Positions 5,084 to 45,132 of a stretch of DNA of 64,000 nucleotides are shown piece by piece (positions within the stretch are counted from its first letter, which is position 1; every line of letters begins with the position of its first letter). Under the pieces are notes generated by a model, which had not been told where the DNA came from, did not search any database, and saw only the letters and a program-made list of their open reading frames with translations. The stretch comes from Porphyrobacter sp. AAP60 (GTDB lineage Bacteria; Pseudomonadota; Alphaproteobacteria; Sphingomonadales; Sphingomonadaceae), in contig NZ_LJHV01000008.1 in assembly GCF_001296025.1 (NCBI RefSeq), positions 186,001-250,000 of the forward strand. The letters are read 5' to 3'. Made by a program: the position numbers and the translations under genes.

Positions 5084-5086
5084 AAC

Positions 5087-22673: not shown

Positions 22674-22747
<74 letters not shown>

Positions 22748-24177: not shown

Positions 24178-24851
24178 TCGGAGGTTTAAGCCGCAACTCG
24201 TCTACGACCCGCATTAAATCGAAGAATTTCGACTTCTATTCAACTTGTTATGGCTAAGCGAGTTGCCCACAACTCGCCGCAAACCCGCATAACTCGCAGG
24301 CGGATCATTTGTGCACAAACCGTGTTTCCGTCGAAATATCAGAGATATGCAACCCGAATTCGCGGGGTAGGGTGTGCTCACTGTTCCCCAATCGCGCGGT
24401 TCGGATTCAATGCCTCTGACTCCTTGAGCTCGGAACTCTCAGACATTCGCCCAGAACGGGAGCCTCCGGCAGGTTGGGCTGAAAAGCCGGGATCGAGTTC
24501 TGGCGGTTGAACGGCACGCAACATGTCAGCGATTCGCCACTTGCCGAGTGGATTGTTTCGGCGAACAGAAGCCCAAAACAGTAGCCCTATCAGCTATTCG
24601 AAGACGGCAGCTGCCGACCCAAGGCCGGTCGTTCGCGACAGCCACTATGAACGTCCGCTTTTGACAGAAGCTGTCAACAGAATGCACCAAAGCGGCCAAT
24701 GAGGTTTGCGCTTCCATATCGGTCATTAGGCCCGTCAGAAACCGCTGTTGGCCATTGATCACCGCAAGCAATTAATGTATCACATTAGCTGTGCCCTCTA
24801 CGCGGTCAGAGCCGTGATCGGGGACCGCCCCGCAAAGCCAAAAGGTGTGAC
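24178..24851. other. Non-coding stretch after the integrase
   Basis: About 670 bp without a supported gene. Short open frames on both strands lack ribosome-binding sites and family features. Its right end carries the palindromic operator at 24773-24787 and the promoter of the EF-hand gene. The rest looks like decayed intergenic DNA. Confidence 0.45.
24773..24787. promoter_or_regulatory. Palindromic operator TAATG-N5-CATTA, site 1
   Basis: TAATGTATCACATTA, perfect arms with a 5-bp spacer. It lies 64 bp upstream of the EF-hand gene at 24852. One of eight such sites in the island; probably bound by the TetR regulator at 29185-29805. Confidence 0.8.
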
Positions 24852-25277
24852 ATGAACAAGGTTTTTCCAATACTCGGTGCGCTTGCCGTTTCCATGTCGC
24901 CCGTGACCACTGGCACCCTGTCGGCTCAGCCGAACATTGAGGCGCTCGAAAAGATTGCCGAGATGATGATCGAGGCCGACCTCAACGGTGACGGAAAGAC
25001 GACGCGTGCCGAGCTCATTCAGCATCGCGCGCAGATGTTCGCCAGGCTCGACCGCAACGAGGACGGGGTCATCGACAAGCAGGACAGACCTAAAAGGCCC
25101 ATGGCAAAGCGAAAGTTTGAACCGGCCTTCGATCAGGTCAAGTCAGTGTTCGATAGCAATAAGGATGGGCGCGTTACCCTTGATGAGTGGAACAGGTCCG
25201 ATCCCGACATCTTCGCCATGCTGGATCGAAACGGCGATGGCGTGGTGACCCGTGCAGAGCTTCCGTCACCCAAGTGA
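24852..25277 (+). CDS. Secreted EF-hand protein (four loops)
   Basis: 141 residues with a signal peptide ending near TLSAQ. Four EF-hand loops: DLNGDGKTTRAE, DRNEDGVIDKQD, DSNKDGRVTLDE and DRNGDGVVTRAE. Probably a periplasmic calcium binder or buffer. It lies behind operator site 1 and 58 bp before the DUF4136 gene, likely as one operon. Two more EF-hand proteins are in the same island. Confidence 0.85.
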   Translation: MNKVFPILGALAVSMSPVTTGTLSAQPNIEALEKIAEMMIEADLNGDGKTTRAELIQHRAQMFARLDRNEDGVIDKQDRPKRPMAKRKFEPAFDQVKSVFDSNKDGRVTLDEWNRSDPDIFAMLDRNGDGVVTRAELPSPK

Positions 25278-25335
25278 GCCGGAGTTTGGCGCAAGCCATG
25301 GGCGGCATGCTGCCGTTGGATTTTGAGCGGAGAAC

Positions 25336-25956
25336 ATGATGACCAAACTTCACCTTGCCATCGCTGCTGGCGCTCTGATGCTGTCTGGTTGCGCCACCAC
25401 CAAGTTCACCTCGGACTTTGATCAGGCCCATGATTTCGGGACCTACAAAACCTTCGCCTGGGCGGGAGAAAGCCCGATGACGGTGCTGGGCGCAACCCGC
25501 GTGCCGCCGATGCTGGAGCCGCGGCTCGCCCGCGAGGTTCGCGCCGAGCTCGAGGCGAAGGGCTATCGCTACGTCGAAGCGCTCGAACAGGCCGATTTCG
25601 GCGTGTCGTTCACGGTCGGCAGCCGCAGCACCACCGAGGTGATCAAAAGCCCCGAGACCTTCTGGGTGAACCAGACCAATTGGCGCTGGGGCCGGGCCTA
25701 TTACCCGGCCTATCGTCGGCCCGTCGCGGTGGGCGCGATCACCCCGGTGACCGTCACCACCACCGAGGTGGAGGCCTACACCGAAGGCACGCTGGCGATC
25801 GACATTTATGATGTGAAGACGAAATCCCCCGTCTGGCACGGGGCGGGCACCAAGACGGTCAATACGTCCGAGGTGGTGGGCCGACGGGGCAATCTCGATT
25901 CGGCCAAGATCCGCGAAGGGGTTACCAAGGTTCTGAAGGATTTTCCGCCAGAATAG
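25336..25956 (+). CDS. DUF4136 lipoprotein
   Basis: 206 residues. Lipoprotein signal with lipobox LSGC near residue 19 (GALMLSGCATTKF). The DUF4136 pattern follows: DFDQAHDFGTYKTFAW at the start, LARE...ELEAKGYR, then ADFGVSFTVG, a Tyr-rich middle and GTLAIDIYDVKTKSPVWHGAGTKTV, with IREGVTKVLKDFPP at the end. Envelope protein of unknown role. Likely co-transcribed with the EF-hand gene upstream. Confidence 0.85.
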   Translation: MMTKLHLAIAAGALMLSGCATTKFTSDFDQAHDFGTYKTFAWAGESPMTVLGATRVPPMLEPRLAREVRAELEAKGYRYVEALEQADFGVSFTVGSRSTTEVIKSPETFWVNQTNWRWGRAYYPAYRRPVAVGAITPVTVTTTEVEAYTEGTLAIDIYDVKTKSPVWHGAGTKTVNTSEVVGRRGNLDSAKIREGVTKVLKDFPPE

Positions 25957-26010
25957 CAAAGGGTGCGGAGCGCGCCGATCCACCACATCGGCGCGCCCCG
26001 CGCTGGCCGC

Positions 26011-26283
26011 TTACTTGAAGCGCGCAGCCATCTGAGCCTCGAGTTGGGCGAGGGTGACAAAGCCGTCCTTGTCGGTATCGATCCGGCTGAAATTGGCAGC
26101 AACGCGGGTCATCCCGCCGTCCTTGGCTTCCTTGTGCGTTAGCTTGCCGTCCTTGTTGGTGTCGGAGGCCTTGAACTTGGTCCGCAGCTCGTTGAGCCGG
26201 TCCTGGTACATGTCGGCGTGGGCCGCCGGGGCAAGGAACATCGCCGCTGCCGCGAAGGCAGCAATCTTTGCAAGGGTCTTCAT
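26011..26283 (-). CDS. Small secreted EF-hand protein
   Basis: 90 residues: signal peptide (KIAAFAAAAMFLAPAAHA), then two EF-hand loops, DTNKDGKLTHKE (canonical) and DTDKDGFVTLAQ (lacking the last acidic residue). GGAGA precedes the ATG. Operator site 2 lies about 90 bp upstream. Likely a periplasmic calcium-binding protein. Confidence 0.8.
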   Translation of the reverse strand: MKTLAKIAAFAAAAMFLAPAAHADMYQDRLNELRTKFKASDTNKDGKLTHKEAKDGGMTRVAANFSRIDTDKDGFVTLAQLEAQMAARFK

Positions 26284-26372
26284 CGGTCAATCTCCAAAGG
26301 TTTATGGGTCAGGCAGAAGCTCGGGGCCGAAGAATCGCGGGACCCGCGACCAACCGCCCTGAAGCCCTGATA

Positions 26373-26387
26373 TAATGCATAACATTA
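26373..26387. promoter_or_regulatory. Palindromic operator TAATG-N5-CATTA, site 2
   Basis: TAATGCATAACATTA with perfect arms. It sits between the stop of the DsbA-like gene and the EF-hand gene that reads left from 26283, so it probably controls the latter. Confidence 0.8.
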
Positions 26388-26438
26388 ACCGGAGCCATAC
26401 CGCAGTGGATTGGGCGATAATCTGGCGCCGCGCAGCGC

Positions 26439-27086
26439 CTAGCTCTTGGCGAGACCGGCGCGGTCAAGCCGCCAGCGCAGGGTATCGATCCGGTCCTGCC
26501 CGAAGAATGGCTCCTCGCGAAACACCATGGTCGGCACGCCCCAGTGCCCAGCGGCATCGAGCGTGTCTTGGTTGCACGCGATCTCTTCGAGATGATCGCC
26601 GCTTTCAATGGCCGCATCGAGCTCGGCAAGGTCCAGCCCAGCATCGGCCACGGCTTCCTTGAGCAGGTCGCCCTGATCCCACCCGCGCGTGCCGCCAAAG
26701 ATCAGCGCGGCGACCCGGTCAGCCAGCTCAACGCCCCGACCCCGGCGATTGGCCTCCACACCCAACTTCGACAGGCGGTAGATATAGGGCTGCTCCTTGG
26801 CGACCTCCATCGTACGGAAATCCTGCACGATCGGATCGGGATCGGCCGGGAAAACGATCGGCCGGCCGAGCATTTCGCCCCGGCGGACGCTGTCCATGAC
26901 AATGTAGCGCGGCGGCCTACGGTTGGAGGAATCGAACAGCGCCTGCGGATTGCGCACCGCCAGCGGCAGCACGACGCGCAGCTGGACATCGACAGCATAG
27001 TCGTCGCGCAGCTGGAGGAGGTCTGCCGTCACCAGCCGCGAATAGGGGCTGCGGAATGACCAGAAAACGTCAACAGTTTCGCTCAT
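26439..27086 (-). CDS. DsbA-family protein similar to 2-hydroxychromene-2-carboxylate isomerase
   Basis: 215 residues. Thioredoxin-like start VDVFWSFRSPYSRLV, with Ser where DsbA has Cys, as in the HCCA-isomerase/GST-kappa group. Near the C terminus are HWGVPTMVFREEPFFGQDRIDTLRWRL and a helical insert region in between. No signal peptide, so cytoplasmic. HCCA isomerases use glutathione to isomerise aromatic ring-cleavage products; the true substrate is unknown. It lies 79 bp after the Baeyer-Villiger monooxygenase gene on the same strand, with GGGGAGAGG before its ATG. Confidence 0.85.
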   Translation of the reverse strand: MSETVDVFWSFRSPYSRLVTADLLQLRDDYAVDVQLRVVLPLAVRNPQALFDSSNRRPPRYIVMDSVRRGEMLGRPIVFPADPDPIVQDFRTMEVAKEQPYIYRLSKLGVEANRRGRGVELADRVAALIFGGTRGWDQGDLLKEAVADAGLDLAELDAAIESGDHLEEIACNQDTLDAAGHWGVPTMVFREEPFFGQDRIDTLRWRLDRAGLAKS

Positions 27087-27165
27087 GGTGCCTCTCCCCG
27101 CGCTTGTCTCACAGCTAACTTACCGGTCTGCACGCGCGGCGCAAACCCCGGTGCGCCGCTGGCGC

Positions 27166-29016
27166 CTACGCGCTGAACACCAGACCTCGGAAATCCCCCG
27201 CGCGGCGCCAGGCAGCAATGTGGCGGAAGAAGCCGTCCGCACCGCCGGGGTGACCTTGAGAGCGGCGGAATTTTTCGTCCCAGCCTTGCCCCTCGTTGTT
27301 CCAGAAGCCGGGCGTGCAATCGGCCGAGGTGATCATCGAGGGCGGTGTGCTGAGGATTAGCTTGACCCATGCGTCGACGGCCTCCTGCGTGGGCTCGACC
27401 TCGGCATAGCCGTGGTGCTCGGCATGGGCGACGACCTGCGCGATGGTGGCGGCGTGATCGACGATGTTGTGCGGGATGTTGGAGACCATGTTGGCCCCCT
27501 GGTTCATCTGCACCGCAAACGCATTGGGAAAGCCGTGCATGTGGAGGCCGTGCAGCGTCTGTAGACCATCGGCCCAATATTCGGACAGCATTTGCCCGCC
27601 GCGCCCCTTGAGATCAAAGCCCGTCTTGAGCTGGAAATTGGCCCCAAATTCGAAGCCCGAGGCGTAGACGATGCAATCGACCTCATAGTGCTTGCCGCCG
27701 ACCATCAGCCCGGTTTCGGTGATCTGTTCGACCCCCTTGCCATCGGTATCCACCAGCGTGGTGTTAGGGGCGTTGAAGGCGGGCAGATATTCGTCGCTGA
27801 AGCAGGGCCGCTTGCAGAGCTGGGAATACCACGGCTTCAAATGCTCGGCAGTGTGCGGGTCGGTGACCAAGCTGTCGACCCGCCCGCGGATCCTTTCCAT
27901 TGTCTCGATATCGGCATCCTCGAAGGCCGCCCGCACCCGCGCGGTGCTTTCCTGGCTGGGCGTGGTGCCGAGCGCCCGGCGCAAACGCGCGAGCAGCCGA
28001 GCCAACCACAGCGGCGTGCCGCCGAGCGCCCTTTCGCGGATGCGGCGCGAGATTGCGGTCCAGCCATCATTGATCAGGTCTTCGGACGGAATGCCCCCGC
28101 CCATGTTCTCGACGAAATTGTCCATCCAGCGCTTCTGCCAGCCCGGCTGAGCAATGTTGGCGAACCATTCGGGGTCGATCGGATGATTACCCCGCACATC
28201 GACCGAGGACGGCGTGCGCTGGAACACGTAAAGCTGCTTTGCGGTCTTGGCGACTTGCGGGATGCACTGCACGCCGGTTGCCCCGGTGCCGATGATGGCG
28301 ACCCGCTTGTCGGCAAGCTTGTCCATCGGCGCGCCCAGCGCATCGCCGCCAGTATAGTCGTAATCCCAGCGGCTGGTGTGGAACGACTTGCCCTGGAAAT
28401 TCTCGATCCCCGGAATGCCCGGCAGCTTGGCGACATGCAGCGGCCCGGTGCCGATCGCGACATATTTGGCGGTGAAATCATCGCCCCGGTTTGTGGTGAT
28501 CCGCCAGACCCGCGCGGACTCTTGCCATTCGATGCTCGACACTTCGGTGTGGAACAGAGCCTTGTCGTAGAGGCCGTAATGCTGGGCGATTCGCTCGCAG
28601 TGGGCGAGGATTTCGGGCCCGCGGACGTATTTTTCGCTCGGGCGGTAGCCGGTCTCTTCGAGCAGCGGCAGGTAGATCATCGCTGCCGTGTCGCAGCGCG
28701 CGCCGGGATAACGGTTCCAGTACCAGGTCCCGCCGACCCCGCCGGCCTTGTCGATCAGCCGGAAACTATCGATCCCCGCTTCCTTGAGCCGCGCGCCGAC
28801 TACCAGGCCCGACATGCCTGCTCCGATAAAGGCGAACGTGACGTGATCGGCCACCGGATCGCGCTCAATATAGGGCGTGTAGGGATCGGCCGCGAGCGCG
28901 GCGAACTTGCCCGACAGCCGCTGGTATTGCGCATTGCCATCAGGGCGCAGGCGCTTGGCGCGCTCGGCGGCGTATTTCGCCTTGATATCAGCCTTTTCGA
29001 GCACCGTCGTCATCAT
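27166..29016 (-). CDS. Flavin-containing Baeyer-Villiger-type monooxygenase
   Basis: 616 residues. FAD-binding GxGxxG at 65-70 (FIGAGMSG), GGTWYWNRYPGARCDT (typical of cyclohexanone monooxygenase-type enzymes), the BVMO fingerprint FQGKSFHTSRWD (207-218; FxGxxxHxxxW) and an NADP-binding GTGATG (243-248). Further on, ASGFEFGANF. Inserts oxygen next to a ketone to give an ester or lactone, using NADPH and O2. GAGGGG before ATG 29016. Operator site 3 lies about 120 bp upstream. An esterase or hydrolase would be the usual next step; candidates occur at 31419 and 44118. Confidence 0.92.
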   Translation of the reverse strand: MMTTVLEKADIKAKYAAERAKRLRPDGNAQYQRLSGKFAALAADPYTPYIERDPVADHVTFAFIGAGMSGLVVGARLKEAGIDSFRLIDKAGGVGGTWYWNRYPGARCDTAAMIYLPLLEETGYRPSEKYVRGPEILAHCERIAQHYGLYDKALFHTEVSSIEWQESARVWRITTNRGDDFTAKYVAIGTGPLHVAKLPGIPGIENFQGKSFHTSRWDYDYTGGDALGAPMDKLADKRVAIIGTGATGVQCIPQVAKTAKQLYVFQRTPSSVDVRGNHPIDPEWFANIAQPGWQKRWMDNFVENMGGGIPSEDLINDGWTAISRRIRERALGGTPLWLARLLARLRRALGTTPSQESTARVRAAFEDADIETMERIRGRVDSLVTDPHTAEHLKPWYSQLCKRPCFSDEYLPAFNAPNTTLVDTDGKGVEQITETGLMVGGKHYEVDCIVYASGFEFGANFQLKTGFDLKGRGGQMLSEYWADGLQTLHGLHMHGFPNAFAVQMNQGANMVSNIPHNIVDHAATIAQVVAHAEHHGYAEVEPTQEAVDAWVKLILSTPPSMITSADCTPGFWNNEGQGWDEKFRRSQGHPGGADGFFRHIAAWRRAGDFRGLVFSA

Positions 29017-29137
29017 GCAGACCCCTCACCTGGTTTGTGCGCTGCACCGGATGGCCTGCCATCAACGGCAGGGTGCGACCCGGCGCCATGGGTAGGCGGC
29101 GAAGCGCAGCGGCCATCGCACTGTGATGAGGGCAATT

Positions 29138-29152
29138 TAATGCATTACATTA
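29138..29152. promoter_or_regulatory. Palindromic operator TAATG-N5-CATTA, site 3
   Basis: TAATGCATTACATTA with perfect arms, between the stop of the TetR gene and the start of the monooxygenase gene, which reads left from 29016. Confidence 0.82.
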
Positions 29153-29184
29153 GATTGTCAAGCGAGCGCGGCTATCACCGGCGC

Positions 29185-29805
29185 TTAAGCAGGCGCGCTC
29201 AGATAGGCCACCTGACAGATGGCCGCTTCCCTGACCGCGGCTTCAATCGGCGCTGCTGTCCCCGCCTCGACCGCGCGGGCAAAGCTCACGGCCTGAACCA
29301 TCGCGATGACGAAACTCTGTCGCATCCGGGGCTCCAGCGTTGCGAGCGGGATGTGCGGCAGGCAAGCGATGATCTCCTCGCTCAGCCGCACTAAGGTGTG
29401 CGCCCCCGCGTTCATGATCAGCTTGGCGTAGTCGAACCGCGGATCGGAAACGAACTGCAAACAGAACCGTGCGTAGACTCGGCCGTACTCTTCAAGGCAG
29501 ACTTCGAGAAAGGGCCCGATCGCCGCTTCGACCAAGGCCACCAGCCGAGCCTGCGGATCGCTCTCGGTGACCCGTTCGAGCCGCACCGCCCGCTCGGCCT
29601 CGATTCCGCGGTAGCGCTTGGCGAAGACTTCCTCGATCAGGCTTTCGATGCTGCCGAAATGGTAATGCACCGCGCTGGGATTGCGCGCGCCCGCATCAGT
29701 GGTGATCATTTTGACCGAGACCGCGCCGAGCCCCTTCTCGGCAATCAGCCGCTCGGCTGATCGCAGCAATTCGGCCTTGGTGTCCTGACGGCTTGAAACT
29801 TCCAT
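29185..29805 (-). CDS. TetR/AcrR-family regulator, proposed master regulator of the island
   Basis: 206 residues from the ATG at 29805. N-terminal helix-turn-helix: LLRSAERLIAEKGLGAVSVKMITTDAGARNPSAVHYHFGSIESLIEEVF, the canonical TetR HTH with YHFG recognition region. The C-terminal part is the variable ligand-binding domain. An upstream ATG at 29826 is rejected because it would lie inside operator site 4 (29818-29832). The operator overlapping its own promoter suggests autoregulation and control of the divergent MFS gene. As usual for TetR proteins, it is probably a repressor released by a pathway compound. Confidence 0.93.
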   Translation of the reverse strand: MEVSSRQDTKAELLRSAERLIAEKGLGAVSVKMITTDAGARNPSAVHYHFGSIESLIEEVFAKRYRGIEAERAVRLERVTESDPQARLVALVEAAIGPFLEVCLEEYGRVYARFCLQFVSDPRFDYAKLIMNAGAHTLVRLSEEIIACLPHIPLATLEPRMRQSFVIAMVQAVSFARAVEAGTAAPIEAAVREAAICQVAYLSAPA

Positions 29806-29817
29806 ATCACTCGCTAG

Positions 29818-29832
29818 TAATGTCAAGCATTA
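29818..29832. promoter_or_regulatory. Palindromic operator TAATG-N5-CATTA, site 4 (tetR/MFS divergent)
   Basis: TAATGTCAAGCATTA with perfect arms, 12 bp upstream of the TetR start and 95 bp upstream of the MFS start. This position is the strongest link between the motif and the TetR protein. Confidence 0.85.
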
Positions 29833-29927
29833 GAATGGCAATGCCGGGTCCACTTATCCTCGCACAGAAATAGCAAGTTGAGGAAAAATTGTAAGGACCC
29901 GCGTTACGCCTCTTGGGGAGAGCGCCT

Positions 29928-31403
29928 GTGCATGATGCTGACCGCGGCGCGGCCGCCGCTGCAAGGCCGCTGGTGTTCCCGGTCGCGGCCCCGCCGCTCG
30001 GTCGCTGGACCAGGCTGGCGTTTGGCCTTGGCGCGATTGCCCCGGGTGTGGCAGCGGGCGGGTTCGAGTTCTTCCTGCTCATCTACTATAGTCAGGTGGT
30101 CGGGCTCGATGCGCGGCTGGTGGGTCTTGCGATCCTGATCGCACTGATATGCGATGCGATCAGTGATCCCATCGTGGGCTATTGGTCGGACAATTTCCGC
30201 TCGCGCTGGGGGCGGCGGCATCCGATGATGTATGCTTCAGCGATCCCGGTGGCGCTGAGCTTCTTCCTCCTGTGGTCGCCGCCCCAGGAGGGGGCAAGCC
30301 AGAGCGTGCTGTTCTGGTATCTGCTGGTGCTGGCCGTCACGGTCCGCACCGCGCTCACCTTCTACCGCACGCCGTCATCCGCGCTGACCCCCGAACTGAC
30401 CGCCGATTACGGCGAGCGCACCTCGCTGATCAGTCTGCGCTATTTCCTGGGGTGGACCGGCGGCAATGCGTTGTCGGTATGGATGTTCTTCATCCTGTTT
30501 CCGCGCTCGAAGACCCCGGAGATTGCCGATGGCCGTTTCAATCCCGAGGCCTACCTCACTTACGGCACCGTGGCGGCGGTGGTGATCTTGCTATCGATCC
30601 TGATCGGTTCCATCGGTGTGCATTCGCGCATCCCCTACCTCACCCCGGCACCGCCCAAGCGCCGTGTCACCTTCAGGCTGATCTTTGGCGAATTGCTCGA
30701 AACCCTGTCAAATCGCTCGTTTCTGGCGCTGTTCGCAGGCGCCATGCTGTTCGGCATCGCGGCGGGGCTGAGCTCGGGCATGTCGCTCTATTTCTTCATC
30801 TATTTCTGGGGCTTCAGTGAAATAGAGACCGGTATGCTGTTCCTTGGGACGTTCGTGGCTGCGCTGATCGGCTTTGTGCTGGCCCCGATTGCCTCACGGC
30901 GCATGGGCAAGAAGCGCGGGGCAATCATAGTCGGGTTGGTCGCCTTCCTCGGCGCCCCGTTGCCGATTGTCCTGCGGCTCGCCGGCCTGTTGCCGCCCAA
31001 TGACGATCCTTTCGTGTTCTGGTTCGTGCTGGTGGCACAGATTATCGATGTCGGCTTGATCATCTGCTTCCAGATCCTCTTTTCCGCAATGCTGGCCGAT
31101 CTGGTCGAGGATAGCGAGGTCACAACCGGGCGACGCTCGGAAGGCGTCTTCAACGCGGCGGAGACCTTCGTTGACAAGTCAGTGCGCGGCCTCGGCGTGA
31201 TGGCGGCGAGCGCGGTGCTGACACTCGCCGCCTTGCCGACCGGGGCCAAGGTCGAAGAGGTCAGTGCCGACACGCTGTGGTGGATGGGCGCCCTTTACGT
31301 GCCGCTGGTGCTGGCGCTGTGGCTCAGCATGATCGCGGTGATCGCGCGCTACCAGATCGATGAGGCCAAGCACGCCGAAAACCTGCGCCAGCTTGGCCGG
31401 TAG
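29928..31403 (+). CDS. MFS/GPH-type transporter (MFS_2 family)
   Basis: 491 residues from GTG 29928, with GGGGAG at good spacing; a TTG at 29913 is an alternative. About 12 membrane segments. Recognisable MFS_2/GPH features: DAISDPIVGYWSDNFRSRWGRRHPMM (loop 2-3), TFYRTPSSALTPELTADYGERTSL and a second-half repeat near LIICFQILFSAMLADLVEDSE. GPH symporters move glycosides and other organic molecules with a cation. Probable inner-membrane importer of the island's substrate. Divergent from tetR. Confidence 0.88.
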   Translation: MHDADRGAAAAARPLVFPVAAPPLGRWTRLAFGLGAIAPGVAAGGFEFFLLIYYSQVVGLDARLVGLAILIALICDAISDPIVGYWSDNFRSRWGRRHPMMYASAIPVALSFFLLWSPPQEGASQSVLFWYLLVLAVTVRTALTFYRTPSSALTPELTADYGERTSLISLRYFLGWTGGNALSVWMFFILFPRSKTPEIADGRFNPEAYLTYGTVAAVVILLSILIGSIGVHSRIPYLTPAPPKRRVTFRLIFGELLETLSNRSFLALFAGAMLFGIAAGLSSGMSLYFFIYFWGFSEIETGMLFLGTFVAALIGFVLAPIASRRMGKKRGAIIVGLVAFLGAPLPIVLRLAGLLPPNDDPFVFWFVLVAQIIDVGLIICFQILFSAMLADLVEDSEVTTGRRSEGVFNAAETFVDKSVRGLGVMAASAVLTLAALPTGAKVEEVSADTLWWMGALYVPLVLALWLSMIAVIARYQIDEAKHAENLRQLGR

Positions 31404-31418
31404 CGCGCGCGGGGGCGG

Positions 31419-32453: not shown

Positions 32454-32497
32454 CGACTCTCCCATATCCTTCGGGCCACGCTGCCATTGTCGCGGTG

Positions 32498-32512
32498 TAA
32501 TGCGATGCATTA
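32498..32512. promoter_or_regulatory. Palindromic operator TAATG-N5-CATTA, site 5
   Basis: TAATGCGATGCATTA with perfect arms, 44 bp upstream of the hydrolase start at 32453 and in the gap after the small membrane protein. Confidence 0.82.
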
Positions 32513-32544
32513 TTCCCCCGCTTTAACGTGGTTCGACCCGCTGT

Positions 32545-32943: not shown

Positions 32944-32950
32944 CCCCGCC

Positions 32951-35611: not shown

Positions 35612-35668
35612 TTTACCCTCCCAAGGTCGTCCGCCACCATTCTGTCTGCGACGGCTGCTACATTGCAT

Positions 35669-35683
35669 TAATGGTAGACATTA
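35669..35683. promoter_or_regulatory. Palindromic operator TAATG-N5-CATTA, site 6 (receptor/sulfatase divergent)
   Basis: TAATGGTAGACATTA with perfect arms, 57 bp upstream of the receptor start and about 186 bp upstream of sulfatase 1, which reads to the right. Confidence 0.8.
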
Positions 35684-35869
35684 TTTTCTCCCTCGCAAGA
35701 GCCGAGTTGCAGGCAGCCGGTGCAGGTTGGAATCCTCGCCTTTCTGCGGAGTGGATTGCGTTTTCTAATTGCTTCCATTAATTCTGTGCGGGAGCGGCGT
35801 GCCACTGCGGTGGGCAAGGCTCCAGCGGTAAGGCTTAGGCGCCGCGATGCCGCGCTGAGAGGAAACGGA

Positions 35870-37543: not shown

Positions 37544-37556
37544 GGGATCGACGAGA

Positions 37557-38387
37557 ATGAACATCGTGCTCACGGCTCTGGCCGTCATTGGCGGGCTTGT
37601 CGTACTGGCCATCGCCGCGGCCATGATCACCGGGCTGCGGCAGCCATCGCGGCGCATCTATCGGCATGACACGGTCATTTTTGCAGCGCTGCAGCGGGAT
37701 GATCCGGCGTTGCGTCTGATCGCTCCTGACGCCCTGTGGGCTTCATCGTCCCTGTACACTCTGATCGGTGACGGCGAGCCCTACTGGACCGATTACCTGA
37801 TCTTGCCGCCCGACCCGCGCGCTCTGCAGGAGCTGAAGGCCCAGCCAAAGGTGTCAGACCTGTTTGTGGCCGAGGTCGCCCTGACTCCAGTCCCCGCGAT
37901 GGCCCTCGGAGTGCTTCGGCTGCGGCATCTGCTCGGCCTCACCCGCAGGCCTGCGGCGCCATTGCCGACCGCGCTCGACCAGATCGATGGGCGGCGCGAT
38001 GTGCTGCCCACTATGGAAGCCATCGCCAAGGCCCAGGCCCTGCCTCAGGATTTGCCCGTAACGATGATGAATTACCTCGAATATCCCGCCATCGCCAAGG
38101 GTGACGCTGCGGACGGGCGCGCGGCCTATCATCGCTATGGCCGCCAGGCCATGCGGGCCGTTCACGGCGTCGGCGGTCAATTCCTGTTTGCCGGCCGGAT
38201 CACAGCGGTGCTGGCTGCGCCAAATAGTCCGGACTGGCAGGCGCCCTGGGATGACGTTGCAGCGATGATCTACCCCGATCCGACTGCGATCTTCGCCATG
38301 GAGCAATTCCCTTTCTACCGCCGGGCGCTCAGCGACCGCGACGAGGGCCTCAAGCGCACCCGCGTGATCGCGACGCAGGCCTATTGA
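37557..38387 (+). CDS. Membrane-anchored protein with DUF1330-like C-terminal half
   Basis: 276 residues from ATG 37557 (GAGGGA upstream), 13 bp after the sulfatase stop. N-terminal membrane helix (NIVLTALAVIGGLVVLAIAAAMI). The C-terminal half (about 170-276) contains MMNYLEYPAI, GGQFLFAGRITAVLA, WDDVAAMIYPDPTAIFAMEQFPFYRRALSDRDEGLKRTRVI, the pattern of DUF1330/dimeric ferredoxin-like-fold proteins. The first half has no recognised fold. Probably an accessory of the sulfatase operon; function not assigned. Its end overlaps the stop of sulfatase 2 by 7 bp. Confidence 0.7.
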   Translation: MNIVLTALAVIGGLVVLAIAAAMITGLRQPSRRIYRHDTVIFAALQRDDPALRLIAPDALWASSSLYTLIGDGEPYWTDYLILPPDPRALQELKAQPKVSDLFVAEVALTPVPAMALGVLRLRHLLGLTRRPAAPLPTALDQIDGRRDVLPTMEAIAKAQALPQDLPVTMMNYLEYPAIAKGDAADGRAAYHRYGRQAMRAVHGVGGQFLFAGRITAVLAAPNSPDWQAPWDDVAAMIYPDPTAIFAMEQFPFYRRALSDRDEGLKRTRVIATQAY

Positions 38388-40171
38388 GCGGTGCGGCGCC
38401 GGCGCAGCAACGCCCGAACCAAACGCACCGCCAGCCAGATCACCGCAGCAAACATCAGCAGGATCCCGCCCAGCACACCATAAAGCCAGGGGTAATTGTT
38501 GAGCAGCCGCGCGCCGGTGTTTCTGGTCACCTGGACGAAGGAATCATAGCCCTCCGGCATCTCCAGCACGCCCACCCGCTTGGCATAGGCGCTGTATTCG
38601 GCGAGCAGCCGCTGCATGACCACAGGCTCGCTGGCGCTGAGATCGGTGGTCTCGCCCGGATCGCGCGCGAGATTGTAAAGCCGCCAAATGCCATCGCCGA
38701 CCGGGGGCACGCTGCGGGTGATCTTGTAATCGCCGAGATAGAGCGCCGAATTGCCCGAGACCTCAACTGCGCGCGCCTCGCCAGGGCCATAGGCGCTTTC
38801 GGCTGCACCGCTGAGAACCGGCAGCAGGCTGCGGCCGGTCATCGGCTTGCCCTTGGCTAGCTTCGGGTCGATCTCAAGCCAGTCAAGCACGGTCGGGGCG
38901 ACATCGGTGATCATCGCCGGGCTGGTGACCCGCTGCGGAGCAATGCCGGGCCCCGCCATGATCAGCGGCACGCGGATCCCGCCCTCTGTGGCGTAAAACT
39001 TGAACCACGCGCCGGGTGTGGCGGCGGCGGCCGCCCATTCCGGGCCGATAAAGCCCCATGACCCCGGACCGCCCATGTTATCGGCGCCGACGTGATAGCC
39101 GGCCAGTCTGTGGAACAGGCTGATGACGGCGCTGTCGTCCCCTCGCGAAGGTTCTGGGCCATTGTCGGAGGAGACGATGAAGATCGTATTGTCGTACGCA
39201 CCCTTGGCCTTGAGGTGCGCGATCAGCCGCCCGATGTGGAAGTCCATCGCCTCCAGCATCGCTGCATTCACTTCCATCCGCGCCGCATAGAGCGCGCGGT
39301 CCTCGTCTGTCAGGCTCTCCCAAGCGCGGTGACCGGGGGCAAGCGCAGCGAGCGGCGCACCCTGCGGGATCAGGCCCAGCGCTTGCGCCTTCCGGTGGCG
39401 CTCCTCCCGCAACGCCTCCCAGCCCCGATCATAGCGCCCCTTGTAGCGGTCGATGAATTCCTGCGGGGCCTGCACCGGAATGTGGATCGCCTGAAACGGC
39501 AGATAGGCGAAGAACGGCTTGGCCGGATCGGTCTCGGCCAGATATTCGATCGCCGTATCGACAATGAAGCGCGAGGAATAGAAATCCTCTGGCAGGCTCG
39601 TCTCGACCCCGTCCTCGAACCACGGCGCGTCCTTGTAGTAGGGCATGTAGGAGCGGTCGTCCCAATTGTCCGCGCCCGAGGCTGCCAGCGCAAAGCTGCG
39701 GTCGAAGCCGTGGGCCTGCGGCATTTCGTCCGCCGCCTCGCCCATGTGCCACTTCCCCGCCATCACCGTCCGATAGCCCTGCGCCCGCAAGCGGTCGGCG
39801 AGCGTCAGCACGCCCGGCTCCAACGCCATTTTGTATCCGGGCTGGCCGCGCTGCTCCTTGGGCAGGACTTCGGGAATGGTGGCGACCCCGGTGAGGTGCG
39901 CGTCCATCCCGGTCAGCAGCATCGCGCGCGAAGGCGAGCACAGCGGCGAGGCGCGGTAGTGCGTGAACAGCGCCCCGCGCCCCGCCAGCATGTCTATATT
40001 GGGGGTGCGCGCCTCCCCGCCATAGGCGCCAAAGTCCATCAGGGCGACATCATCGGCAAGGATGATCACGACGTTGGGGCGCTTGTCCGCCTGCACAGCG
40101 GGTCCGGTTGCGCCCACCAGAGCGGCGATGGCAAGGAACGGCAGCAGCAGTCGCGATCGTAGGGTCTGCAT
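38381..40171 (-). CDS. Type I arylsulfatase-like protein with C-terminal membrane helix
   Basis: 596 residues. Signal peptide (LLLPFLAIAALVGATGPAVQA), then RPNVVIILADDVALMDFGAYGG, SPLCSPSRAMLLTGMDAHLTG with Cys78-Ser-Pro-Ser-Arg82 (CxPxR), AGKWHMGEAADEMPQAHGFD, FAYLPFQAIHIPVQAP and FIVSSDNGPEPSRGD. The segment around TGMDAHLTGVATIPEVL and the overall layout resemble Pseudomonas arylsulfatase (S1_4). A C-terminal helix (LYGVLGGILLMFAAVIWLAVRLV) with a basic tail anchors it to the inner membrane, facing the periplasm. 3 bp after the small membrane gene, so co-transcribed with it from operator site 7. Confidence 0.92.
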   Translation of the reverse strand: MQTLRSRLLLPFLAIAALVGATGPAVQADKRPNVVIILADDVALMDFGAYGGEARTPNIDMLAGRGALFTHYRASPLCSPSRAMLLTGMDAHLTGVATIPEVLPKEQRGQPGYKMALEPGVLTLADRLRAQGYRTVMAGKWHMGEAADEMPQAHGFDRSFALAASGADNWDDRSYMPYYKDAPWFEDGVETSLPEDFYSSRFIVDTAIEYLAETDPAKPFFAYLPFQAIHIPVQAPQEFIDRYKGRYDRGWEALREERHRKAQALGLIPQGAPLAALAPGHRAWESLTDEDRALYAARMEVNAAMLEAMDFHIGRLIAHLKAKGAYDNTIFIVSSDNGPEPSRGDDSAVISLFHRLAGYHVGADNMGGPGSWGFIGPEWAAAAATPGAWFKFYATEGGIRVPLIMAGPGIAPQRVTSPAMITDVAPTVLDWLEIDPKLAKGKPMTGRSLLPVLSGAAESAYGPGEARAVEVSGNSALYLGDYKITRSVPPVGDGIWRLYNLARDPGETTDLSASEPVVMQRLLAEYSAYAKRVGVLEMPEGYDSFVQVTRNTGARLLNNYPWLYGVLGGILLMFAAVIWLAVRLVRALLRRRRTAQ

Positions 40172-40174
40172 GGC

Positions 40175-40570
40175 CTAGCCGTTGCTCTCGCGCCCGCGCC
40201 CGAGCACGCGGCTGGCGGTGATGAGAATGGAGCCCATCACGATCTCGATCCCCACCATGTGGGCGAGGAAAGGGGCACCGTGGAACAGGAAGGCGCCGGT
40301 GCGGTAAGCGGCCGCGCCCAGCAGCATCACCGACGCCGCGATGAACCACGGCCGGTCGCGCGTGAACAGTGCGAGGGCCGCGAAAGTGGCCGCGCTCATG
40401 AAGAATGCGCCAATATCCATCTGGCTGCTCAGGCCCGAGCCGGTCAGCAAGGGCATTTCAAGCACCTTGGCCGCGCGCGCCGGGACAATCAGCCAGAGGC
40501 CCGCGTTGAGCCCCATGAACAGCGCAATGAGGGTAACAAGACCCAGCAGAACCAACCGACCCACTTTCAT
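40175..40570 (-). CDS. Small four-helix membrane protein, paralogue of 32545-32943
   Basis: 131 residues from ATG 40570 (GGGAGAG at a spacing of about 7 nt; a GTG at 40585 is an alternative). Four membrane segments, starting VLLGLVTLIALFMGLNAGLWLIV. The PARA...MPLLTGSGLSS motif repeats the layout of the protein at 32545. Encoded immediately upstream of sulfatase 2. Unknown function; it may be a partner of the membrane-bound sulfatase or receptor. Confidence 0.75.
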   Translation of the reverse strand: MKVGRLVLLGLVTLIALFMGLNAGLWLIVPARAAKVLEMPLLTGSGLSSQMDIGAFFMSAATFAALALFTRDRPWFIAASVMLLGAAAYRTGAFLFHGAPFLAHMVGIEIVMGSILITASRVLGRGRESNG

Positions 40571-40593
40571 GCCACGCTCTCCCACTTGTGGAT

Positions 40594-40608
40594 TAATGCA
40601 CTACATTT
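40594..40608. promoter_or_regulatory. Operator-like TAATG-N5-CATTT, site 7
   Basis: TAATGCACTACATTT, one mismatch in the right arm. It lies 23 bp upstream of the small membrane protein (leftward) and about 123 bp upstream of the formylglycine-generating enzyme (rightward), so it may serve both. Confidence 0.65.
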
Positions 40609-40731
40609 TTGGTCGATGTGGTGTCAATGGACGCGTGGCGATGCGGCATGATGTCCAGCGTGGGTGGACCGGATAGAGCATATTGACGCAAGATGTGCCA
40701 CATGGTCGATGACGATCCGGGTGAGGCAGGA

Positions 40732-41709
40732 ATGATTGGGCACAACGACAAGTGGGCCGAGCAGGCGCGGTCCAATCGGCGGCAGTTCGCAAGCGGGCCA
40801 TTTGGGCTAATGCTTGCCTTGCTGTTTGCGGTTTCCGCCTGCGGGGAGGCGCCGCAGCAGGACCGGCGGAAGGTGGTTGCCGCCGCCTGCACCGGCCTGA
40901 CCGAACCAGGCATGGTGTGGATTGCGGGCGGCCACTTCACCATGGGTGAGGATGCCCGCTACTCCGAGGAGGGCCCACCGCGTGAGGTTGAGGTGGCAGG
41001 CTTCTGGATGAGCCAGACCGAGGTCACCAACGCCCAGTTTTCCCGATTTGTCGCCGCCACCGGCTACCGCACCGAGGCCGAGCGCGATCCGCCCAGCTTG
41101 CCGGGCGCGCCGCCCGAAATGCTTCTGCCCGGATCGGCCGTGTTCCGGGTGCCGACGTCCGACAATCGCAATTGGTGGAATTGGGTGCCGGGCGCCAGTT
41201 GGCGTAATCCATCTGGCCCTGAAAGCGCGATCGACGGGCGCGACAATGATCCAGTGGTGCAGGTCACCTATAATGACGCACTCGCCTATGCGCAGTGGGC
41301 CGGGCTGTCGCTGCCGAGCGAGGAGCAGTGGGAATTTGCCGCACGCGCTGGCGCCGAGAGCCTGCCCGAGCCCAAGGATGCGGCTGGCAACCCGACCGCC
41401 AATTATTATCAAGGCGTCTTCCCCGCCCGCGACCTTGGCGAAGATGGCTTCACCGCCCGCGCGCCGGTCGGTTGCTTTCCGGCCAATGCCTTTGGCCTCC
41501 ACGATATGATCGGCAATGTCTGGGAATGGACCACCGCCGCAGCGCGTCCGGGCCTGCCGGTCAACGTGATCAAAGGCGGGTCATACCTGTGCGCAGCCAA
41601 TTACTGCGCCCGGTACCGCCCCGCCGCGCGCCAGTTCCAGGAACGTGACCTCGGCACCGATCACATCGGCTTCCGCCTCGTCGACAACCAACTGCCCGCG
41701 CCGCGTTAG
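40732..41709 (+). CDS. Formylglycine-generating enzyme with lipoprotein signal
   Basis: 325 residues from ATG 40732 (GAGG upstream). N-terminal lipoprotein signal with lipobox VSAC (Cys37) after LMLALLFA. The FGE-sulfatase domain has PGMVWIAGGHFTMGEDARYSEEGPPREVEVAGFWMSQTEVTN, VVQVTYNDALAYAQWAGLSLPSEEQWEFAAR, GLHDMIGNVWEWT, KGGSYLCAANYCARYRPAAR and GTDHIGFRLV. Cys287 and Cys292 have the CxxxxC spacing of the catalytic pair in known FGEs. It would oxidise the CxPxR Cys of the two sulfatases to formylglycine using O2 and copper. An exported FGE is noteworthy. Confidence 0.9.
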   Translation: MIGHNDKWAEQARSNRRQFASGPFGLMLALLFAVSACGEAPQQDRRKVVAAACTGLTEPGMVWIAGGHFTMGEDARYSEEGPPREVEVAGFWMSQTEVTNAQFSRFVAATGYRTEAERDPPSLPGAPPEMLLPGSAVFRVPTSDNRNWWNWVPGASWRNPSGPESAIDGRDNDPVVQVTYNDALAYAQWAGLSLPSEEQWEFAARAGAESLPEPKDAAGNPTANYYQGVFPARDLGEDGFTARAPVGCFPANAFGLHDMIGNVWEWTTAAARPGLPVNVIKGGSYLCAANYCARYRPAARQFQERDLGTDHIGFRLVDNQLPAPR

Positions 41710-42686
41710 GCGAAGAGTGCCAGCATATCATGGCGCGCCAGCAGCGCGTCGACCTCGGCGCGCGCGGCCGGGGGCAGTTCGGCATAGCTGCGGCGCAAGG
41801 CATTGAGGCACTTCACCTGATAGCCAAAAGTACCCTGTTCATAGGGCAATCCGTCGACCTCAATTCGGAAGCTGCTTTGCCCCGCCGCAAGTGCAGCTTC
41901 GTTGGCGAGCAAGAAAGACGCGTAAACCCGGCCTGCTTCGCTCAGCAGCGCCTCGACCACCGGGGGCCATCCCGGCGCCCAATCGCCCTCCACGCCCGAG
42001 GCATCGTCGACATGGGCGAGCCAGCGATAGGTGTACGGATAGTCGCGGCGCATCATCGCCTGCGCGGTCGGATCGACTCCGAGTTGCGAGAACTGCCCGT
42101 AAATCCCGAACTCCGCCAGCGACGGGCGGGTGCCGAACAGCCAATGGCCCGTGGTTACATGCGCTTCCAGCGCGGCCAGCACCCGGCGGGTGGAGGCCTC
42201 GATCAGCGGGAAATTTTCGCGCGTGCAGCCAACCAGCGCCATGCGCCCGACCTGCCGGTCACGGAAGGCGCTGGCGAAGCTCTCGATCTGCGCCAGCCCG
42301 CCGCCCTGGAACAGGTCGAAGGCGAGCCAGTGGCTCATCTGGTCCTGATCCACCGTCTCTAGCCAGCGATAGCCGAACATCGCCTTGGTCAGCCATTCAT
42401 CGGCAAAATCCTCGATGAGATGCGCGACGAACGCCTGCGCCGGATCGTCGGGGACGATCGAGCGCTCGGCGTGCCGCGCTTCGAGATCGTGGATCAGCGC
42501 CGTGCTGTCATTGGCGAAATGGCCATCGGGATATTCCAGCACCGGGATCACCGGCGCCTTCACATGCGCCTGCGCCGCGCGCGCCGCCGGGCCTTGCGAC
42601 CAGACATGCGGGATCCGGCGATAGCGCAGGATCGCCCGCATCTTCATCGAATAGGGTGACGCCAGCGCGCCGTGGAGCTTGTACAT
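41706..42686 (-). CDS. Glutathione S-transferase family protein
   Basis: 326 residues, longer than a typical bacterial GST (about 200-230). N-terminal thioredoxin-fold start YKLHGALASPYSMKMRAILRYRRIPHVW, VIPVLEYPDGHFANDSTALIHDLE (cis-Pro and the glutathione-binding acid-Ser pair), then a helical C-terminal domain including TTGHWLFGTRPSLAEFGIYGQFSQL. An extra C-terminal segment of about 80 residues has no recognised fold. Cytoplasmic. 11 bp after the metallo-hydrolase gene, so they form an operon. Its end overlaps the stop of the FGE gene by 4 bp (convergent). Confidence 0.85.
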   Translation of the reverse strand: MYKLHGALASPYSMKMRAILRYRRIPHVWSQGPAARAAQAHVKAPVIPVLEYPDGHFANDSTALIHDLEARHAERSIVPDDPAQAFVAHLIEDFADEWLTKAMFGYRWLETVDQDQMSHWLAFDLFQGGGLAQIESFASAFRDRQVGRMALVGCTRENFPLIEASTRRVLAALEAHVTTGHWLFGTRPSLAEFGIYGQFSQLGVDPTAQAMMRRDYPYTYRWLAHVDDASGVEGDWAPGWPPVVEALLSEAGRVYASFLLANEAALAAGQSSFRIEVDGLPYEQGTFGYQVKCLNALRRSYAELPPAARAEVDALLARHDMLALFA

Positions 42687-42697
42687 TGGGCCCTGCC

Positions 42698-43765
42698 CTA
42701 TAGCAGACTGCGGCGATCAATAGCCTCGGTTTGCGGCGGTAGCGAGAACAGCATCCCATCCTCGCCGACCACGATTCCGCCGTCGAACCGTTCGGGCGCG
42801 TCGCCGAGGAAGGCGGGGTAGAGATAGGAGAACGGCAGCGGCGGGACGAGGTGCGAGAGCACCAGCATCCGCGCGCCCGCCGCTTGCGCGCTCTCTGCCG
42901 CCTGTTCGGGCGTGGAGTGGTAATCCTCGATGTCGGTGAAGATCTTCGCGGTGCTGGCATTGCCGTCAGCCGCGAAGGCCGCCCCGACCTTCCTGAGCAT
43001 CTGCGGCTGCAAGGCATCATGGACAATCAGATCGGCCCCCTTGCAGCTCGCGATCAGGTTGTCGGATTTGGCCGCATCGCCGCTGATGCACACGCTGCGC
43101 CCCTTGTAGTCAAAGCGATAGCCGACCGCAGGCTTGATCGGGTCGTGATCGACCTTGAACGCCGTCACGGTGAGGCCGCCGCTCTGAAAGATGACGGCGG
43201 AGTTGCCCTCCAGCGCAAAGGGCCGCGCCGTAGCCCCTCCCCCGCTGGATGGCACGACCTCTTCGCCGTGATGCGCGATCCGGTAGCTGTGATCGAGCGC
43301 ATAGGCGGCATTGAAGCCGGCCACCACCTGCTCGACGCCTTCGGGGCCATAGACCGGCAGCGGGGCGGTGCTGGTGCCGCGGGTCCAGTGGTACAGCATC
43401 AGCGGACCAAGGCCGTCGATATGGTCCGAATGGAAATGGGTGAGCAGCAAGGCGTCGACATCGCCGGCGCTGATGCCCATCATGTTGAGGTTGCGATTGC
43501 CATTCTCGCCCATGTCGATCACCAGCACCTGGTTTCCGGCGACAACCACATTGCAGGGCCCGGCGCGGGTCGGGTTGGTCATGGGCGAGCCGGTGCCGCA
43601 CAGCCCGACATGAAGACCGTCGCCTAGGCTTGCCAGCAGGTCGCGCCCGGGCACTGCCTGCGCCGCACGCTGGTAGAGGGCCGCACCGATCGACTTCTGG
43701 AACACGAAGCCCGCCGCCAGGACGATCACCACCAACACCAAGAGCCCGAGCCCGATTCGCTTCAT
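42698..43765 (-). CDS. Metallo-beta-lactamase-fold hydrolase, AtsA arylsulfatase-like
   Basis: 355 residues. Membrane anchor or signal at the start (GLGLLVLVVIVLAAGFVF). Zinc-binding motif LLTHFHSDHIDGLG (His110, His112, Asp114, His115), ISGDAAKSD, ADLIVHDALQ and a late LVLSHLVPP. The layout resembles the RNase Z-like AtsA arylsulfatases, a sulfatase type that does not need formylglycine, but other ester hydrolase roles are possible. AAGGGGAAGGA before the ATG. Operator site 8 lies about 30 bp upstream. First gene of an operon with the GST. Confidence 0.82.
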   Translation of the reverse strand: MKRIGLGLLVLVVIVLAAGFVFQKSIGAALYQRAAQAVPGRDLLASLGDGLHVGLCGTGSPMTNPTRAGPCNVVVAGNQVLVIDMGENGNRNLNMMGISAGDVDALLLTHFHSDHIDGLGPLMLYHWTRGTSTAPLPVYGPEGVEQVVAGFNAAYALDHSYRIAHHGEEVVPSSGGGATARPFALEGNSAVIFQSGGLTVTAFKVDHDPIKPAVGYRFDYKGRSVCISGDAAKSDNLIASCKGADLIVHDALQPQMLRKVGAAFAADGNASTAKIFTDIEDYHSTPEQAAESAQAAGARMLVLSHLVPPLPFSYLYPAFLGDAPERFDGGIVVGEDGMLFSLPPQTEAIDRRSLL

Positions 43766-44117
43766 TATCCTTCCCCTTCAGCCGACTTGATGGCTTAATC
43801 GTTCGCATTAGGCAATTGCTCAAGCTCGGGCTTGATGATGCGGGTGGTGAGGCGCCTTGCCATGGATGGGTGACCATTTGCTCATGGAACACGAGCAGCA
43901 CGTACGCAGACAGGCGGCATCTTGACTTAGCGTTCTGAATGCTCGTTGTCGGCTCGTGGCGAAACCCGCCGTTCGCCACGCCTCCGCGGGACGGCAGGCA
44001 CGCCCCAAGACCTTCCGGCAGATCTCGACCCAGAGCTGGGCGGAACGGCGAATGGCGGCAACGCCCATTCCCGGTAATGCTTGCACGGGAAAGAGGCGTT
44101 GCCGCTTGCAACTCTCC
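43766..44117. other. Intergenic stretch between metallo-hydrolase and esterase genes
   Basis: 352 bp with no supported gene. It holds operator site 8 and the promoter of the metallo-hydrolase gene. The rest shows no recognisable element. Confidence 0.4.
43796..43810. promoter_or_regulatory. Operator-like TAATC-N5-CATTA, site 8
   Basis: TAATCGTTCGCATTA, one mismatch in the left arm, about 30 bp upstream of the metallo-hydrolase start at 43765. Confidence 0.6.
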
Positions 44118-45101: not shown

Positions 45102-45132
45102 GGTGGTTCTCCAGGTTTTGCGTGTGGGGTGA

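Follow-up and report, generated by a model that had tools for sequence, protein, structure and literature searches.

We analyze here a 64,000-nucleotide stretch of the 3.25-Mb genome of the sphingomonad Porphyrobacter sp. AAP60 (positions 186001-250000 of contig C29), which we call the window. A 19-kb part of it encodes two sulfatases, a formylglycine-generating enzyme (FGE), a Baeyer-Villiger monooxygenase (BVMO), putative import proteins and a TetR-family regulator, and is carried by an integrative element at a tRNA-Gly gene. A sequence-only reading of the window had proposed that 24773-43810 is one regulon with a possibly complete import, desulfation and breakdown pathway for a sulfated small molecule. 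Calls of open reading frames (ORFs) and domain searches recovered every gene class named in that reading: a TonB-dependent receptor, two sulfatases, an FGE, a metallo-beta-lactamase-fold (MBL-fold) protein, an MFS_2 transporter, a BVMO, an alpha/beta hydrolase, a glutathione S-transferase (GST) and a DsbA-fold protein. The tRNA-Gly integrase island, the EF-hand members of the regulon and the DUF4345-like and DUF1330-like genes had been omitted from it. The genes of the 19-kb stretch, in window coordinates, are these:

24852-25277 (+), exported EF-hand protein, regulon member (Pfam; signal-like N-terminus; a 62% ortholog in genome G167 is preceded by an operator)
25336-25956 (+), DUF4136 lipoprotein-like gene, downstream of the EF-hand gene (Pfam)
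26011-26283 (-), small exported EF-hand protein, regulon member (Pfam; operator at 26373)
26439-27086 (-), DsbA-fold protein (PF01323, 57 bits)
27166-29016 (-), type I BVMO of the PtlE/PockeMO group (NF045818, 5mq6, fingerprint FQGKSFHTSRWD)
29185-29826 (-), likely start 29805, TetR-family regulator (PF00440, PF17939)
29913-31403 (+), MFS_2 (GPH-type) inner-membrane transporter (PF13347, 293 bits)
31419-32510 (-), haloalkane-dehalogenase-like alpha/beta hydrolase (HGNPT, QDWGG) with a hydrophobic N-terminal segment
32545-32943 (-), small DUF4345 membrane protein (PF14248, 26.6 bits, cut-off 26.5)
32951-35668 (-), TonB-dependent receptor (PF00593 and PF07715)
35870-37543 (+), longest ORF from 35720, Sulf1, Cys-type S1 sulfatase with a hydrophobic N-terminal anchor (PF00884, 194 bits)
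37518-38387 (+), DUF1330-like protein with a hydrophobic N-terminal segment (PF07045, E 0.004, under the cut-off)
38381-40171 (-), Sulf2, exported S1 arylsulfatase (PF00884, 193 bits; 1hdh)
40175-40585 (-), small DUF4345-like membrane protein (no Pfam match; clusters with the 32545-32943 protein)
40693-41709 (+), FGE, lipoprotein-like (PF03781, 241 bits; GGSYLCAANYCARYR)
41706-42686 (-), GST-fold protein of 326 residues (Pfam)
42698-43765 (-), MBL-fold metallo-hydrolase (HFHSDH) with a hydrophobic N-terminal anchor (PF12706, 76 bits)

The intergenic regions of this stretch have an operator in common, TAATG-N5-CATTA, which occurs at the following places:

24773-24787, exact, before the EF-hand gene
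26373-26387, exact, upstream of the small EF-hand gene
29138-29152, exact, within a promoter-like element of the BVMO operon
29818-29832, exact, between the TetR and MFS_2 genes
32498-32512, exact, at the haloalkane-dehalogenase-like hydrolase gene
35669-35683, exact, between the TonB receptor and Sulf1 genes, with a one-mismatch copy at 35766
40594-40608, one mismatch, between the small membrane protein and FGE genes
43796-43810, one mismatch, before the MBL-fold gene

When up to one mismatch to TAATGNNNNNCATTA is allowed, the window holds 9 sites against 0.39 expected, and none of 100 shuffles reached 9. The exact operator has six copies in the whole genome and all six lie in the window at 24773-35683, while the reversed-pattern control gives one. 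With up to one mismatch the genome holds 23 sites compared to 16 for the control; of the 17 that this adds to the exact copies, 14 lie outside the cluster and 3 inside it. Taken one by one, the three cluster sites with a mismatch (at 35766, upstream of the FGE gene and upstream of the MBL-fold gene) are therefore weaker, but the last is matched by a one-mismatch site before the MBL-fold gene in both G167 and L064, the two genomic regions with the closest orthologous clusters. G167 has five exact operators and one with a mismatch, L064 three exact and two with a mismatch. In both, sites precede the orthologous BVMO, haloalkane-dehalogenase-like and MBL-fold genes and separate the DUF4345 and Sulf1 genes, with spacers that mostly differ; G167 alone has further sites before its EF-hand gene and between the DsbA-fold gene and a small downstream gene. 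Given the shuffles and the whole-genome count we reject a chance origin of the operator. It is shared before transcription units and rare elsewhere, as under a single regulator, and the outer edges of its first and last copies coincide with the ends, 24773 and 43810, that had been claimed for the regulon. Thus, the 19-kb stretch forms one operator-defined regulon, which is supported well beyond chance.

The regulator of this set is presumably the TetR-family protein, as its gene abuts an operator and as TetR and operator are jointly rare. Close relatives of this TetR are found in 2 of 397 family genomes (its own and G167) and in L064 (91%). The position of the BVMO operator inside a promoter-like element is as expected for a repressor; overall, a consensus promoter scan was at chance level (4 found, 4.2 expected from shuffles).

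Sulfatases, their maturation and the accompanying enzymes

Both sulfatases score above the PF00884 cut-off and carry a formylglycine motif, CAPSR in Sulf1 and CSPSR in Sulf2, which agrees with the two CxPxR sulfatases read from the sequence earlier and places them among the Cys-type S1 sulfatases. One further PF00884 sulfatase is encoded in the genome, at C29:395265. Sulf2 resembles the Pseudomonas aeruginosa arylsulfatase AtsA, or PAS (1hdh). Its residues 29-538 align with residues 2-529 of that enzyme (383 bits), and the catalytic motifs (DD, the formylglycine site, GKWH, SDNG and a late Lys) are in register in this end-to-end alignment. Unlike PAS, Sulf2 has an additional C-terminal hydrophobic segment and sits in an operator-defined regulon together with an FGE. 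PAS is described as an enzyme used for hydrolysing steroid sulfates (PMC8906285). The structure model of Sulf1 has a mean pLDDT of 70, and parts near the active site are poorly modelled.

The FGE carries GGSYLCAANYCARYR, which we take to be the pattern of true FGEs, and the corresponding Cys pair (GGS-x-L-C-x4-C-x-R-Y/F-R) is present in 27 of 27 members of its cluster, the window protein included. By crude rules, and with N-termini that are uncertain, 23 of the 27 have a lipobox-like motif (16) or a strongly hydrophobic N-terminal stretch (15). These sequences suggest that the FGE is exported and that sulfatase maturation may occur outside the cytoplasm. Lipoprotein-like or hydrophobic N-termini are seen in FGE homologs of L066, L067, L105, L143 and other loci. 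The two EF-hand genes of the regulon each follow an operator and both encode signal-like N-termini. In carbohydrate sulfatases the sulfate-binding site is reported to contain an essential calcium ion (PMC10154612), and because of this requirement we reasonably infer that the EF-hand proteins may supply calcium to the sulfatases.

Type I BVMOs are recognised by the fingerprint FxGxxxHxxxW[P/D]. The window BVMO has a GAGMSG Rossmann motif together with FQGKSFHTSRWD and hence belongs to this type. Its top family is PtlE/PntE (NF045818), where it scores 656 bits against a cut-off of 1100 and is thus not a PtlE equivalog, and its gene adjoins sulfatases and not pentalenolactone biosynthesis. The top solved match is 5mq6, which we take to be PockeMO, with 441 bits compared to 254 for the next entry. 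PockeMO is said to act on bulky substrates (PMC6058054), and two enzymes related to PntE, one 92% identical to it and the other 50% (and 39% identical to PockeMO), are described in that paper as accepting androst-4-ene-3,17-dione and as not accepting androsta-1,4-diene-3,17-dione. The likeness supports the placement of the window BVMO in a group that would take bulky ketones.

The alpha/beta hydrolase had been described as an Asp-nucleophile hydrolase, and its Asp nucleophile, the Trp next to it and the Asp and His that follow further on indeed align with those of haloalkane dehalogenases (5esr, 4mj3). In contrast to these enzymes, the window protein has a hydrophobic N-terminal segment, and at the second halide-binding column it has Ser and no Trp; the Asn of HGNPT is present. 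It scores under all three dehalogenase cut-offs that it matches, with 119.6 bits for an NCBIfam cut-off of 265, and we do not call it a haloalkane dehalogenase. The supposed AtsA-like metallo-sulfatase is a metallo-hydrolase of the MBL fold, but the AtsA-like label is weak: RNase Z-like models (166 bits, cut-off 363) and PNGM-1 (69.6 bits) match best, with the arylsulfatase entry 8gyg comparable at 66.9 bits. Likewise, the gene that had been called HCCA-isomerase-like is present, while Pfam gives only DSBA and the match to the HCCA isomerase 2imd is weak (26.6 bits over residues 4-81). The names of the MBL-fold, DsbA-fold and hydrolase proteins are therefore provisional. For the GST a structure model of pLDDT 89 shows the general GST fold only; the best target-normalised TM-score among the 50 listed of 935 fold matches is 0.73, for StyI.

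Recurrence of the sulfatase core

Sulf1 relatives (E <=1e-60) occur in 29 of 199 family genomes, the own genome included. From 29 Sulf1 matches outside the own genome, 21 neighbourhoods were examined; GST and FGE are each found in 13 of them, Sulf2 in 11, an MBL-fold protein in 8 and a different TetR family in 17, the window being excluded from these counts. A second set of named loci consists of the best 80 of 575 Sulf1 relatives. It reaches from Sphingomonadaceae, Hyphomonadaceae, Caulobacteraceae and Parvibaculum to Halieaceae, Spongiibacter, SAR92, Limnohabitans, Rhodoferax and others, and the closest named relative is that of L064, Sphingomonas sp. UBA4766 (87%). By tblastn, GST is matched in 41 of these 80 loci, FGE in 33, Sulf2 in 29 and the MBL-fold protein in 27, compared to 0-2 for 13 window genes outside the regulon. 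Sulf2 was counted at 38% identity or more, as at lower identity it matches Sulf1 itself (80/80). Since many of the loci are shorter than 21 kb, these co-occurrence counts are lower bounds. Five or more of seven core partners are present in 9 loci and none in 12. Thus, Sulf1, Sulf2, FGE, GST and the MBL-fold protein co-occur loosely, as a core that recurs across alpha-, beta- and gammaproteobacteria. Some genomes are in both sets (L076 is G001, L095 is G085 and L105 is G151), and counts by protein-family cluster include the window wherever a family holds a window gene. Such clusters show haloalkane-dehalogenase-like homologs of another branch in 23 of the 80 loci and a tandem DsbA protein in 23. 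Alignment A2 has 10 sequences and is without L005, L007, L008, L013, L015, L016, L017, L019, L022 and L023, of which L007 and L023 were left out for stop codons.

In several relatives other enzymes stand next to this core. Spongiibacter L102 has a coenzyme A (CoA) ligase, a short-chain dehydrogenase/reductase (SDR), a medium-chain dehydrogenase/reductase and an acyl-CoA dehydrogenase nearby, and an alpha/beta hydrolase adjoins Sulf1 in L086, L089 and L096, the one scanned, in L096, being of the epoxide-hydrolase kind. In the Halieaceae Sulf1 loci L110 (11154-12266) and L117, a DUF2855 protein adjoins an acyl-CoA-dehydrogenase-like gene and a class-III aminotransferase. DUF4345-like small membrane proteins and DUF1330 proteins recur beside Sulf1 in distant bacteria (e.g. 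L040:13314-13724).

Proposed pathway and its alternatives

We propose that the 19-kb stretch is a mobile regulon which is controlled by TetR and serves the catabolism of a hydrophobic organosulfate, with a sterol or terpenoid sulfate as the likeliest candidate, and give this an even chance of being correct. A sulfate ester would pass the outer membrane via the TonB receptor, and the exported Sulf1 and Sulf2 would release sulfate outside the inner membrane, both having been matured outside the cytoplasm by the lipoprotein-like FGE, perhaps with help of the calcium-binding EF-hand proteins. The desulfated, neutral product would then enter across the inner membrane via MFS_2. An enzyme encoded outside the regulon would convert the freed alcohol to a ketone, into which the BVMO would insert oxygen, and the alpha/beta or metallo-hydrolases would open the ester or lactone. 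The GST and the DsbA-fold proteins may deal with electrophilic or unsaturated intermediates. TetR would hold the TAATG-N5-CATTA operators and release them upon binding an intermediate. A sterol or terpenoid sulfate is proposed because a BVMO for bulky ketones, a PAS-like sulfatase and the many Sulf1 relatives whose host names suggest aquatic life would fit such a substrate; sterol sulfates are present in diatoms (PMC5670183). The best support for the order of desulfation, oxidation, Baeyer-Villiger reaction and hydrolysis comes from outside the window. The betaproteobacterial Sulf1 loci L134, L135 and L143 encode another BVMO-type protein (by Pfam on L134 of the unfused pair). In L143, from Limnohabitans sp. 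G3-2, an Abhydrolase_3 domain is fused to a Baeyer-Villiger-type flavin monooxygenase (3806-6160), with an SDR just upstream and Sulf1, Sulf2 and FGE in the same locus; the relatives in L134 and L135 are unfused.

Several observations weigh against this proposal or against a complete pathway. Domain scans of the regulon revealed no gene for an alcohol dehydrogenase, a CoA ligase, a ring oxygenase or beta-oxidation. KshA_C (PF19298) has no match genome-wide, in a weak test where only 1 of 14 control genomes gave even a sub-threshold match. The BVMO fingerprint lies beside Sulf1 in only 7 of 102 neighbourhoods (the window, G167, L064, L134, L135, L143 and G042), and homologs about 60% identical to the window BVMO are found at other places in many genomes, in contexts that have nothing telling in common. 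In 12 such contexts the most recurrent neighbours, which we take to be a ThiC-like and a P450-like protein, appear in 4 and 3 and all others in at most 2, which is uninformative on the substrate; in 4 of these contexts the ORF caller missed the BVMO itself, as a longer ORF overlapped it. The BVMO is thus an addition to the sulfatase core, whose own chemistry is less clear. In the 80 named loci the window's own hydrolase type is matched in 11, TonB in 9, DsbA in 5, MFS_2 in 4, BVMO in 3 and TetR in 2, and the EF-hand, DUF4136 and DUF1330-like genes in none. Neither TonB nor MFS_2 is matched next to the closest two orthologous clusters, G167 and L064, and the L064 stretch examined is also without Sulf2, FGE and GST. 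With import genes absent beside the nearest relatives' clusters and ring-degradation genes not present, the word complete in the sequence-only reading was too strong. Finally, the closest solved structures of Sulf1 are S1 carrageenan sulfatases (6prm, 9fo1; about 240 bits).

That last likeness raises the question of a small sulfated-glycan system, in which the TonB receptor, a sugar-type MFS_2 transporter and a carrageenan-like Sulf1 act on a sulfated oligosaccharide and the rest is accessory. The best solved matches of Sulf1 are kappa-carrageenan sulfatases, and the window transporter is of the MFS_2/GPH type, whose members are often sugar symporters. However, Sulf1 differs from the carrageenan sulfatases by its N-terminal hydrophobic anchor and by about 40 additional residues across the part aligned to 6prm, Sulf2 is PAS-like, and the BVMO, GST and dehalogenase-like genes have no evident part in glycan breakdown. 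Moreover, glycoside hydrolases, polysaccharide lyases and SusCD pairs were not found among the regulon proteins or among 30 neighbour proteins from 7 distant loci (picked from 52); five of the 30 have no Pfam match and one is a PfkB sugar kinase. On this ground a polysaccharide utilisation locus is rejected, as the sequence-only reading had done, and its view of a sulfated small molecule rather than a glycan is supported, with the identity of that molecule being conjectural. We consider the oligosaccharide system quite unlikely. Somewhat better placed, yet still unlikely in our view, is sulfur scavenging, where the cell would assimilate the freed sulfate and would only transform part of the carbon skeleton or detoxify it. 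AtsA-type arylsulfatases are classic sulfate-starvation enzymes, and the regulon does not encode a complete carbon pathway. Against this, the private operator next to the TetR gene suggests that a specific ligand acts as inducer, the BVMO and hydrolases share the regulon, and genes for a CoA ligase, an SDR and an acyl-CoA dehydrogenase lie close to the loci of relatives.

Catabolism of a halogenated organosulfate, with two sulfatases for two sulfates and with the dehalogenase-like hydrolase and GSTs removing halogens, seems very unlikely to us. Algal chlorosulfolipids and bromophenol sulfates would be candidate substrates. The haloalkane-dehalogenase homologs beside Sulf1 in 23 of 80 loci have QDWG or HDWG in all 23, and Trp is found in 21 of 21 ungapped rows at the position that we take to be the second halide-binding column; GST families recur as well, and many hosts look aquatic by name. 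However, two of the 23 carry an epoxide-hydrolase-like HGFPDD motif, dehalogenase-like folds also work as esterases, lactonases and epoxide hydrolases, and the window hydrolase departs from the family in its Ser and in its scores, as described above. Bacterial breakdown of chlorosulfolipids was not found in our search of open-licence papers.

The proposal of a mobile regulon for a hydrophobic organosulfate can be taken further, as a tentative idea that we hold to be possible but would not favour. The cluster would then represent an undescribed organosulfate module of alpha-, beta- and gammaproteobacteria, which has its own exported FGE and works via a ketone, Baeyer-Villiger oxidation and hydrolysis, and which here was captured by the tRNA-Gly element and is governed by an operator of its own. 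Its natural substrate would be either an algal sulfate of the sterol or terpenoid type or a sulfolipid that carries halogens. In the open-licence literature searched, we found no description of the sulfatase gene cluster, and this limited search likewise gave no bacterial genes for the breakdown of algal sterol or terpenoid sulfates or of halogenated sulfolipids. Sterol sulfates are described as regulators of cell death in a bloom-forming diatom (PMC5670183). If the module consumes sterol sulfates, a phytoplankton signal would be tied to named bacterial genes, which could then be counted in metagenomes. An exported FGE, if confirmed, would mean that bacteria of this group mature their sulfatases outside the cytoplasm. 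The operator offers a ready route to the inducer and hence to the substrate.

The integrative element at tRNA-Gly

The regulon lies between two direct repeats, next to an integrase gene:

22674-22747 (+), tRNA-Gly(TCC), integration site (ARAGORN, Rfam); left repeat attL at 22730-22747
22828-24177 (+), P4-type tyrosine integrase (Arm-DNA-bind_3, Phage_int_M and Phage_integrase; Pfam)
49519-49536, right direct repeat attR, an exact copy of the last 18 bases of the tRNA

The DNA from panC to tRNA-Gly is matched in 41 of 41 genus genomes searched, the own genome included, and in many of them as one continuous stretch. Downstream of the tRNA, 12 stretches from relatives were compared. In G234 and G235 the tRNA is followed, within 135 and 32 bp respectively, by the DNA that corresponds to window 58.7-58.8 kb onward, which is an empty site. 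Inserts of about 1.4 kb (G224) and about 17 kb (G226) separate the tRNA from the downstream DNA, G201 and G210 have integrase-like DNA after the tRNA, and in 6 of the 12 stretches the similarity to the window is confined to the tRNA and its edge. The integrase, the att repeats and the empty sites together identify a tRNA-borne integrative element. In G201 the integrase stretch (window 22674-24473) is 89.7% identical at the nucleotide level and the right end (49339-49529) 82%, while the cargo between them differs. We therefore regard the regulon as exchangeable cargo of a 26.8-kb element. The G201 cargo (L156:340-8572) encodes an Eco57I-like methylase, two proteins without Pfam match and an 845-residue GHKL ATPase; it resembles a defence system.

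With an integrase that abuts tRNA-Gly, 18-bp repeats, empty sites and a sister with other cargo, the element is like P4-type tRNA-borne islands. It differs in that the cargo is a whole catabolic regulon, and domain scans of the island proteins showed no conjugation genes. Plasmid searches gave Sulf1, Sulf2 and GST only below 60% identity and BVMO at up to 59%, with no annotated sulfatase in the two BVMO plasmid regions (Sphingobium RC1 and TomTYG64). As the island illustrates, a pathway of this kind can pass among sphingomonads as a single controlled unit.

A second match to the tRNA end (23/24) lies at 57257-57280. We reject it as the right end of the element, since the G201 sister element supports the repeat at 49519 but not the one at 57257. 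The DNA between the two repeats (50291-57280) encodes three DUF4402 proteins, a 329-residue protein without Pfam match and a 1130-residue SdrD_B protein, and together with the 57257 repeat it may be a second, tandem element. Within the island, the part without an operator (44118-48740) encodes an esterase, a fatty-acid-hydroxylase-family protein, a third exported EF-hand protein and an OmpR/EnvZ-like pair.

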